From NCBI GenBank assembly GCA_016933295.1, contig JAFGBG010000149.1:1-43460 (forward strand): 43,460 nt of DNA, read 5' to 3'. A program made the position numbers and the translations under genes. This DNA comes from Sedimentisphaerales bacterium. Lineage in GTDB: Bacteria > Planctomycetota > Phycisphaerae > Sedimentisphaerales > Anaerobacaceae. Within the stretch, counting starts at the first letter, position 1. The number at the start of each line of letters is the position of its first letter. A model generated the notes under the pieces. It made no database searches. It was not told the DNA's origin and saw nothing but the letters and a program-made list of their open reading frames with translations. Of this stretch, positions 24,133 to 27,289 are shown piece by piece.

Positions 24133-26188
24133 TAATTTTTTTCCTTTTCGTTTTATTTCTTTCCTGTTTTTTTGTAGCCAAGAAATCTCTTTTCTTTTTT
24201 CTCGATTCAACGAGAACCAGCTCCGGCAGCTCCTTAAGCTCTTTCAACTGGTCGCGCAGGAAAGCCGCCCGCTCGAAGTCGAGACTTTGTGCCGCTTCGA
24301 GCATTTCCTTCTCGATTTGAGAAGCCAGCTCGACCTTTTCGTATTCGCCGGAGCCGAAACGCACCGCCTGTTGTGCGGTATGTCGTGCCTTTATCTGCTC
24401 AGTAAGGCTTTTACGAATTTCCTTGCGAATCGTCTCAGGCGTAATATTATTTTTTTGGTTGTATTCCAACTGAATTTTACGGCGTCTGTTCGTTTCGTCA
24501 ATAGCTTTCTGCATCGAATCCGTAACTTTGTCGGCGTATAAAAAGACCGTAGCGTTGATGTTCCGGGCGGTTCTTCCGATGGTCTGGATGAGTGAAGTCT
24601 GGCTTCGCAGAAAGCCTTCCTTGTCGGCGTCGAGTATTGCAACGGCGGAAACCTCCGGCAAATCCAGACCTTCCCTCAGCAGATTCACGCCGACCAGTAC
24701 ATCGAAATTGCCGTGCCGTAAATCCGAGAGTATCTCAATTCTCTCAAGCGTATCTATTTCGCTGTGCAAATACCGGCATTTGAAGCCTTTCTTTGTTATG
24801 TAACCCGACAGGTCCTCGGCCATTCTCTTGGTCAGGGTCGTAACGAGAACGCGTTCTTTATTTTCGACTCTTTTTTCTATTTGCTCCAAGAGGTGCGGGA
24901 TTTGATTGCTTGCAGGGAATACGAAGATTTCAGGATCCAGAAGGCCGGTCGGCCTGATAATTTGCTCGACGACCTCGTTTTCGCTTTTGTCCAGCTCGAG
25001 CTGTGCCGGAGTTGCCGAGACAAAAATCACTTTATTCCATTTTTCCTGGAATTCCTCGAATCGCAAAGGCCTGTTGTCCAGAGCGCTCGGCAGACGGAAA
25101 CCGTGCTCGATAAGGGTTTCTTTTCTTTTTCTGTCACCCGCCCACATCGCCTTTAGTTGCGGGATAGTGACGTGAGATTCGTCGATGAACAGGAGAAAAT
25201 CTTCCGGGAAATAATCGATTAACGTATAAGGTTTTGCCCCCGGCGCCAGGCCGGCCAAATGCCGGGAGTAATTTTCTATGCCGCTGCAAAAACCGATTTC
25301 CTGCATCATCTCTATATCGTACATTGTTCTTGCCTGAAGCCGCTGAGCTTCCAGCAGCTTGGCCTGACCGCGAAGCTCGGCCAGACGCTCTTCCAGCTCG
25401 GTTTTTATACTTTCGATTGCCGAGCCGATTCTTTCGGAAGGCATGACGTAATGTTGTGCCGGATAGATAAAGACCTGGCCTTCGACGGCGAGAATGTCCC
25501 CCGAGACCGGATTGATATAGGTGATTTTATCGATTTCCTCGCCGAAGAACTCGATACGCACGGCGAAAGATTCGTAGGATGGATGCAGCTCGACCACATC
25601 GCCTCGGACTCTGAAAGTCCCTCTCTGGAAGTCGATATCGTTTCGTGAGTATTGAATGTCGGCCAGTCTTCCGAGGAGATCGTTTCTTTCCAGATGGTCG
25701 CCGACGCGGATTGCCACGACGCTGGCTTTATAATCTTCGGGCGAGCCGAGACCGAAAATGCAGGAAACGGATGCGACGATGATGCAATCGTTTCTCGTCG
25801 AGAGGCTGGTTGTCGTCGAAAGTCGCAGCCGGTCGAGGTCGTTGTTTTTCGAGGCGTCTTTCTCGATGTAAATATCCCTCTGAGGGATATAGGCTTCCGG
25901 CTGATAGTAGTCGTAATAGCTGACAAAATATTCGACTGCGTTTTCCGGGAAAAGCTCCTTGAATTCCTCGTAAAGCTGAGCGGCTAAAGTTTTATTGTGT
26001 GAGATGACCAGGGATGGCAGGTTAGAACGGGCAATGACGTTGGCCATAGTGAAAGTTTTGCCGGAGCCGGTTACGCCCATCAGTGTCTGGAACTTTTTGC
26101 CGCTGCGCAGACCTTCCACGAGCCGCTCGATTGCCTGCGGCTGGTCACCGGCCGGGTGGAACTGGTTGTTTAACTTAAATGCACCCAT
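24119..26188 (-). CDS. uvrB: Excinuclease ABC subunit B
   Basis: [24 protein letters not shown] Walker [14 protein letters not shown] beta-hairpin, [10 protein letters not shown]-terminal UVR domain. Confidence 0.97.
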
Positions 26189-26206
26189 AAACGAGTCATT
26201 CTACCC

Positions 26207-26241
26207 TGTTTGGGATTGAAACTCACGAGAAATCCCAAACA
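26207..26241. repeat. Perfect 11-bp inverted repeat TGTTTGGGATT-N13-AATCCCAAACA
   Basis: Read directly, in the divergent region between uvrB and the TA module. Confidence 0.75.
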
Positions 26242-26258
26242 TGAACAATAGTTTTTAA

Positions 26259-26287
26259 TTGACGTGTTGGTTATCAAATTATATGAT
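26259..26287 (+). promoter_or_regulatory. Putative sigma70 promoter for the TA module (TTGACG-N17-TATGAT)
   Basis: Near-consensus -35 and -10 with 17-nt spacing, ~40 nt upstream of the mntA ATG. Confidence 0.6.
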
Positions 26288-26328
26288 TTAATGTATAAAA
26301 AATGTAAGAAGTGTCTGAGGAAAATGAA

Positions 26329-26601
26329 ATGCTATCTTCTAAACTTATTGACATAATAAAAAAATATGCACAGGAATTTTCTGTCAAGAGTGTATGGCTG
26401 TTCGGCTCATCTCTTAAAGATGAAGATTCAGCAACAGATATAGACCTTGCGGTTGAAGGTTTGGCTCCTGAGAAATTTTTCGATTTTTATGGTCTTCTTT
26501 ATTTCGAGATGCCAAAACCGCTCGATTTAATTGACCTGGAACAGAAAACTCCTATAGCCGCCTTAGTCAGAGAAAAAGGAATTCTTATATATGAGCGCTG
26601 A
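26329..26601 (+). CDS. MntA-like nucleotidyltransferase antitoxin
   Basis: WLFGSSLKDEDSATDIDLAVEG (GS-X9-DXD, minimal nucleotidyltransferase). ATG 26329 has a GAGGA RBS; the ORF track uses upstream GTG 26311. Confidence 0.87.
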   Translation: MLSSKLIDIIKKYAQEFSVKSVWLFGSSLKDEDSATDIDLAVEGLAPEKFFDFYGLLYFEMPKPLDLIDLEQKTPIAALVREKGILIYER

Positions 26602-27004
26602 ATCTGATTATATACAGGCCGAGATAAAAAGCATTTTGCAAACTTCAGATATGATCCAAGACTTGCTACGACATGAAGTCTTGTCGAAATACGAGACTAT
26701 CGCTCTTGGAAAATTATTACAGGATATTTATACCGGCATTGAACGGATAATAAGAAACAAATTAGAATCGCAGGGTATTAAAACTGTTAAAAACCATAGC
26801 TGGCACAAAGAGATGCTTCTTGCCGCAAAAGAAAACGCGGTCGTATCACAACGGCAGTTCGATGAATTTAGAAAATTGCTTGTATTTCGTCATATGCAGA
26901 TTCATGGTTACGGTTATATGCTTGACGAAAAGAGGTTGCGGGAATTGGCAGAGTTTGTGCCGGCAGTTTGCAGAGATTTTATTCAATTCATAACCGGAAG
27001 TTAG
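26591..27004 (+). CDS. HepT-like HEPN ribonuclease toxin
   Basis: RHMQIHGY matches the RX4HXY HEPN catalytic/AMPylation motif; helical ~137 aa; overlaps the antitoxin stop by 11 nt. Confidence 0.87.
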   Translation: MSAESDYIQAEIKSILQTSDMIQDLLRHEVLSKYETIALGKLLQDIYTGIERIIRNKLESQGIKTVKNHSWHKEMLLAAKENAVVSQRQFDEFRKLLVFRHMQIHGYGYMLDEKRLRELAEFVPAVCRDFIQFITGS

Positions 27005-27012
27005 TTTTTAAG

Positions 27013-27165
27013 TCACTTTTCATCGATCAAAAGCACGCAGTAGTTGGTTACTCCCATCAGTGTCTGGAACTTTTTGCCGCAACGCAGACCTTTCACGAGC
27101 CGCTCGATTGCCTGCGGCTGATCACCGGCCGGGTGGAACTGGTTGTTTAAGCTGAATGTTTCCAT
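27013..27165 (-). pseudogene. Truncated duplicate of uvrB 5' end (50 codons)
   Basis: Minus-strand translation [50 protein letters not shown] matches Uvr[46 protein letters not shown] up to the Walker A loop. DNA 27046-27165 vs 26069-26188: about 11 mismatches in 120 nt by eye. Confidence 0.9.
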
Positions 27166-27289
27166 ATAAAACAGGTTATTTTAACGAACTTTCAAGCAAA
27201 TCTCACGTAAATTCCAACCTTGATATTTTATATTCACTTTTAAGGTGTTATTTATGTGTGTGTTTTGTGTTGGGATGTTATTGTTGTTT

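Follow-up and report, generated by a model that had tools for sequence, protein, structure and literature searches.

A HEPN/MNT toxin–antitoxin pair set between two uvrB 5′ ends in a Sedimentisphaerales genome, and its possible entry by recombination through a host-gene fragment

We analysed a stretch of 43,460 nt (hereafter the window) from Sedimentisphaerales bacterium (GCA_016933295.1, contig JAFGBG010000149.1), a single draft metagenome assembly of 270 contigs. Within it, a predicted HEPN/MNT toxin–antitoxin (TA) pair, mntA-hepT, lies between the 5′ end of an intact uvrB gene and a second, truncated copy of that 5′ end, here called the stub. Past the stub come an M14-family peptidase gene and then purD (Table 1).

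Table 1. Features of the uvrB/mntA-hepT locus, with positions counted from the first nucleotide of the window
Feature	Position	Strand	Evidence and remarks
uvrB, intact, 689 aa	24119..26188	-	NCBIfam NF003673 1044 bits, TIGR00631 1022.7 bits; Pfam UvrB domains
Repeat copy 1	26069..26189	-	5′ end of intact uvrB, codons 1-40 plus 1 nt
Promoter of intact uvrB, CGTGAG-N18-TAGAAT	26198..26227	-	9 nt before ATG; family motif
Perfect 10-bp inverted repeat GTTTGGGATT...AATCCCAAAC	26208..26240	.	Across the promoter of intact uvrB; lies between the promoters of mntA and uvrB, which diverge
Probable mntA-hepT promoter, TTGACG-N17-TATGAT	26259..26287	+	10/12 consensus matches; such sites are no commoner than chance
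mntA, putative MNT-type antitoxin	26311..26601	+	PF18765 38.1 bits; motif GS-X9-DID
hepT, predicted HEPN RNase-type toxin, 137 aa	26591..27004	+	PF20797 (HepT-like_2) 48.1 bits
Repeat copy 2, remnant uvrB 5′ end (stub)	27046..27166	-	Codons 1-40; frame open until a stop after 50 codons
Remnant promoter, CGTGAG-N18-TAAAAT	27178..27207	-	12 nt before the remnant ATG; ancestral position beside M14
M14-family peptidase, ancestral upstream neighbour of uvrB	27290..28105	-	PF00246 61.3 bits; synteny in relatives

The hepT gene overlaps mntA, whose open reading frame begins with GTG at 26311, although alignment with relatives makes the ATG at 26329 (90 aa) the likelier start. Pfam searches recognised Polbeta (PF18765)/NTP_transf_2 and HepT-like_2 (PF20797) in the pair. 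The HepT motif R100-X4-H105-G-Y107 was invariant in an alignment of seven sequences, and in MntA the motif GS-X9-D-I-D, with G32, S33, D43, and D45, was invariant in an alignment of relatives. The fold predicted for HepT (pLDDT 88.9) was closest to the MntA-HepT complexes 6m6u, 6m6w, and 7bxo (TM 0.7-0.86). Given that MntA scored 33 bits against the NCBIfam equivalog cut-off of 60, and that no NCBIfam toxin model matched HepT, the pair is read, from its motifs and modelled fold, as a divergent subfamily (HepT-like_2) of the HEPN/MNT class. Among GTDB genomes only twelve relatives were found, nearly all under the title of Planctomycetota or Sedimentisphaerales/Phycisphaerae metagenome assemblies; a search of plasmid, phage, and viral collections with the toxin gave no match. 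Between the repeats there is no gene other than mntA and hepT, and the main genes at 18.8-32.9 kb gave no Pfam match to a recombinase, in line with an earlier note on this DNA, which speaks of a pair lacking transposase or integrase.

The direct repeat extends over 26060-26189 and 27037-27166 (88% identity, ungapped, over 130 nt). In its core (26069-26189 versus 27046-27166), 110 of 121 nt (91%) are identical, and the 11 mismatches agree with the duplication of about 120 nt in the same orientation that the earlier note had described; its offset of 977 bp, with only the TA pair between the copies, was likewise confirmed. Both copies translate on the minus strand as the UvrB N-terminus, the 40 uvrB codons of the remnant being followed by 10 residues unrelated to UvrB and a stop. 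No third copy of the repeat is present in the genome. When the 350 bp to the left of mntA were aligned with the 350 bp to the right of hepT, the local alignment score was 187, whereas none of 1,547 sliding windows of identical geometry scored above 30, indicating that the repeat is not a product of chance. A further repeat of 30 nt (26249/27002) was considered as a possible pair of element ends and set aside, 70% identity over 30 nt being unconvincing.

In the family to which the window belongs, the gene order is M14-uvrB-nadC-birA. Where nothing has been inserted (G055, G054, G036, and G027), the gap between M14 and uvrB measures 103-240 bp and contains a single uvrB start. The stub of the window lies 125 bp from M14, within this ancestral distance. 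Together with the empty sites in relatives, this shows the TA pair to be an insertion, as the earlier note had held, and by sequence comparison the pair and a second uvrB start appear to have arrived between codon 41 of the stub and the present uvrB. A duplicated uvrB start without an adjacent TA pair, the pattern that the same note had set against its own reading, was seen at none of about 60 uvrB loci.

The M14-uvrB gap is also a hotspot for other insertions, whose cargo varies (L040, L041, L049, L048, and L038) and none of which has a duplicated uvrB start. The cargo includes an AAA ATPase pair (G001) and a MutS-like protein (G002), both in the genus of the window, a PF05168 HEPN/MNT pair of another type (G053), a beta-helix protein (G041), and a 201-aa ORF. 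These two congeners, the only ones compared, each carry other cargo in the gap, and at uvrB itself no relative points to either start as the foreign one. In G021 (L084, 6624-7318), uvrB is preceded at a distance of 25 bp by a related MntA/HepT pair in the same orientation, without duplication. As no recognisable uvrB promoter is present there either, transcription of uvrB in G021 may start from the TA operon. In G041 (L037, 6503-7093), a second, broken uvrB (first ~197 aa), 90% identical to the UvrB of the window, stands beside an M14 gene, and the same chromosome has a full uvrB at another place. In G018 and G048, truncated uvrB N-termini were rejected as remnants, as they reflect a run of N and a contig end.

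The two uvrB starts of the window each have a promoter of their own. A motif CGTGA-N13-22-TANRAT precedes 16 of 31 uvrB genes of the family versus 5 of 1,992 background windows, and the weak similarity near 26221 and 27202 noted earlier is real and corresponds to the -35 side of this conserved promoter. In the stub (CGTGAGATTT...METFS) the motif is intact rather than decayed. The inverted repeat across the promoter of the intact gene has an unexceptional predicted RNA fold (z -0.34 and -1.03). Divergence between the copies is uneven, with 24 mismatches in the 71 aligned sites of the promoter and codons 1-5 but only 7 in the 108 of codons 6-41 (p = 4e-6). A simple duplication followed by decay, which was the earlier proposal, would be expected to diverge evenly and fits this poorly, so that, with the stub promoter intact as well, it is unsupported as originally put. 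From the sequence, the pattern is that expected of two uvrB starts, old and different, whose shared core was recently homogenised. Later gene conversion could mask the original identity of the copies. Six of the 11 mismatches of the uvrB repeat fall in third codon positions, which taken alone is not significant.

Similar structures were found at mutL. In most genomes of the family, GpmI stands directly before mutL, which has a 'type 1' start (ATGGGCCARATAGTCGTC); in genomes with cargo between GpmI and mutL, the gene starts as 'type 2' and has a promoter of its own. The cargo of G001, G021, and G026 includes a HEPN/MNT pair oriented divergently from mutL, and the mutL start is duplicated in all three, versus 0 of 27 other loci (p = 2.5e-4). 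In G026, the stub starts as type 1, differing from type-1 genomes at 2-4 of 18 nt, and the intact gene as type 2, differing from the stub beside it at 6 of 18 nt; the middle of the stub equals the genome's own gene, and the stub ends in KELM where that gene has KELL. Read in this way, G026 would have a native outer part, a shared core, and a foreign inner part, as a single crossover predicts. The TA pairs linked to mutL in G026 and G021 are ~87% identical, whereas the mutL body and GpmI are ~70% identical, indicating that the unit moved horizontally between lineages. The GpmI-mutL gap is a second hotspot (L144, L149, L150, L153, L156, L158, L159, L170, and L172), with zeta-toxin-like, MNT, DUF4258-like, ankyrin-type, and other cargo. 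Upstream of a GlcNAc-2-epimerase (AGE) gene, G024 carries a HEPN/MNT pair between the copies of a 51-58 bp repeat, and the congener G115, which lacks the pair, has a single copy at an empty site matched by both outer flanks of G024.

The earlier note had called for a search for other HEPN/MNT pairs flanked by long direct repeats of the adjacent gene. Applied to further loci with this type of toxin in the family of the window, the flank comparison gave many additional cases. In a wider test covering 900 bp on each side of the toxin, with a score of at least 36 (thresholds picked after the first nulls had been seen), 11 of 24 loci of the HepT-like_2 type had flanking direct repeats, against 1 of 20 and 2 of 39 PIN toxin loci (3/59 in total; p = 3e-5). 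Control loci without a toxin gave none (uvrB 0/40, mutL 0/22; 0/62). When a duplicate contig and a generic repeat were left out, the comparison with PIN was 9/22 versus 3/59 (p = 2e-4). Direct repeats occurred in 12 of 25 cases and inverted repeats in 0 of 25. For pairs with a PF01934 HEPN protein, 6 of 27 and, in a second sample, 10 of 56 had repeats (16/83 versus 3/59 for PIN, p = 0.02), but when only clearly neighbour-gene-derived repeats were counted (about 6 of the 16) the excess was gone (p = 0.74). Evidence for extending the pattern to PF01934 pairs is therefore weak, and the strong claim is confined to the HepT-like_2 subfamily.

The repeats come from the 5′ ends of uvrB and of mutL (three genomes), the promoter region of the epimerase gene, the 3′ ends of a HEAT-repeat gene, a metallo-beta-lactamase-fold gene, folP, a leuA-type gene, and mutS, and a DUF362 gene. 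Since they stem from different neighbour genes, they are target-derived rather than element-specific ends. Over the coding repeats examined, mismatches in codon positions 3:1:2 numbered 61:22:16, a third-position excess (p = 8e-9 against one third, p = 0.013 against one half) which suggests that most of the divergence arose while both copies were functional genes. Repeats at L074, L284, L296, L297/L261, and L112 were rejected as gene ends, having the look of low-complexity or dispersed intergenic repeats. Among the duplicated ends around HEPN/MNT pairs are those of DNA repair genes, namely uvrB, mutL, mutS, and the recO/ruvB neighbourhood (L291, L181, L069, L073, L066, and the window). At L081 (6040-6278, G015) and L082 (G011), a copy of the 3′ end of the neighbour gene and a decayed second TA fragment follow the TA pair; the two genomes belong to different genera but look alike over this stretch, suggesting either cross-contamination between metagenome bins or a very recent transfer. 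At L063 and L072, in two genomes, hepT is followed by an apparent 3′ fragment of a DUF2442-type gene (VNPDIDTIVWDNDADVSPDFLY), suggesting that TA pairs may insert into other small modules.

The mosaic divergence at uvrB, the two lineage types of mutL start in G026, and the third-position excess together point to homologous recombination as the process that joined 5′ ends of xenologous origin. We propose, giving it about an even chance, that the HEPN/MNT unit entered uvrB by homologous recombination of incoming DNA that contained the pair and a foreign uvrB start. The incoming DNA would have consisted of the TA pair with the promoter and first codons of the uvrB of a related lineage, probably as a circularised fragment, and a single crossover would have taken place within the conserved codons 6-41. 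The product would be, beside M14, the native promoter and codons 1-41 as a stub, then hepT-mntA, and on the other side a native uvrB whose promoter and first codons have been replaced, in frame, by the imported ones. The near-identical cores would have been homogenised by recombination or mismatch repair, the outer and inner ends retaining their separate origins. The pair would require no recombinase of its own, and its addictive character would counter-select loss through recombination between the repeats. The insertion costs little, as uvrB is intact and has a promoter. In E. coli, single-crossover integration of incoming DNA after trimming and re-circularisation produced duplications of the homologous gene over 109-950 bp (PMC3240628). 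Several observations count against this model: in no other lineage is uvrB closer to the uvrB remnant than the genome's own gene, the uvrB-linked pair of G021 lacks a duplication, the mutL stub of G021 resembles its own gene, and no circular form or carrier of the pair was found. The presence of xenologous 5′ ends, an alternative that the earlier note had listed as contrary to its view, is favoured by the mosaic divergence and by mutL in G026 but not by the affinity of the uvrB remnant itself.

A long target duplication, in which illegitimate recombination duplicated ~120-190 bp of uvrB, the stub decayed, and gene conversion kept the core alike, seems to us unlikely, although the formal structure fits it, empty sites exist, the epimerase locus of G024 compared with G115 looks like a clean duplication, and restriction-modification (R-M) units with target duplications of ~100 bp have been described (PMC3874152). 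It does not sit well with a promoter and first five codons far more diverged than the codons that follow, with two lineage types of mutL start in one genome, with a third-position excess across loci, or with a stub promoter that has not decayed. Alternatively, a linear donor [TA - promoter - uvrB 5′ end] may have entered one-sidedly by homology-facilitated illegitimate recombination, with a crossover in uvrB and an illegitimate join at codon 41 that left the native start in place. This process is known in competent bacteria, has been proposed for displacement arrays of toxin-immunity modules (PMC5361080), and yields the same native stub and imported start. We nevertheless regard it as improbable, since it predicts a uniform donor-native divergence over the overlap, yet codons 6-41 are nearly identical; moreover, a deletion rather than a duplication would be expected, and in the E. 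coli test the process was much rarer than a single crossover (PMC3240628).

The second, decayed TA copy after the repeat at the related locus L081 is what a tandem duplication of a pre-existing [uvrB 5′ end + TA] upstream of uvrB, followed by loss of one TA, might leave. In the window, however, the spacing of the stub and M14 is ancestral and contains no remnant of a TA, and the promoters are too different for a recent event, which makes this explanation very improbable. An assembly artefact or a chance resemblance is hardly credible: the assembly is a draft metagenome in 270 contigs, but the alignment score is far above the controls, independent assemblies share the architecture at mutL, and strain mixing would not create a junction between codon 41 and hepT.

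The recurrence of target-derived repeats in the family suggests that related HEPN/MNT pairs spread by recombination through host-gene fragments and not by an enzyme of their own. More broadly, although we think it less likely than not, HEPN/MNT pairs might be recombinase-free mobile units in which a piece of a conserved host gene, carried along, serves as homology arm; entry by a single crossover would rebuild the gene end so that nothing is broken, addiction would hold the pair in place, and DNA repair genes (uvrB, mutL, mutS, and the recO/ruvB region) would be recurrent points of entry. This bears on how small modules without transposases spread. Were host-gene fragments to serve as homology arms, movement could be read from genomes, the stubs being scars by which transfers are dated and traced, and an old idea would become testable, namely that addiction stabilises insertions between direct repeats that would otherwise be lost by recombination. 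A caution also follows, in that duplicated uvrB or mutL starts can be mistaken for paralogues or pseudogenes.

The hallmark of HepT/MntA (type VII) systems is that the RNase activity of the toxin is neutralised by AMPylation. With the Shewanella system of this type (PMC7641770) the window pair shares the mntA-hepT order and overlap, the MNT motif, the RX4HXY motif, and a similar predicted toxin fold (TM 0.80-0.86 to 6m6u); it differs in its HepT-like_2 (PF20797) subfamily, its score below the NCBIfam MntA cut-off, and the lack of an NCBIfam toxin match. HEPN/MNT pairs have been termed the most abundant predicted class of TA systems (PMC7641770). A literature search of partial coverage found no account of gene-fragment-flanked insertion for them.

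The minimal mobile elements of Neisseria lie between two conserved genes, and their variable cargo is swapped through homology of the flanking genes without mobility genes. The different cargo between the conserved M14 and uvrB genes across relatives is similar, but in the window one flanking gene end stays duplicated, and the cargo that leaves a duplication is a TA pair. In Vibrio, type VI effector-immunity modules also enter beside a homologous anchor and displace the old copy, although what is left over is an immunity gene rather than the stub of a housekeeping gene (PMC5361080). A partial duplication of the homologous gene flanks the insert in the E. coli single-crossover integrations as well, which were obtained in an engineered conjugation experiment, whereas the window case is inferred from natural genomes (PMC3240628). 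Insertion with long target duplication has been proposed for R-M units (Nobusato 2000; Furuta 2010, as cited in PMC3874152), which are selfish two-gene modules without a recombinase and with direct target repeats of ~100 bp; by comparison, the cargo of the window is a HEPN/MNT pair and its repeats resemble the gene ends of two lineages rather than one duplicated target. The window case extends two known ideas, long target duplication and minimal mobile elements.
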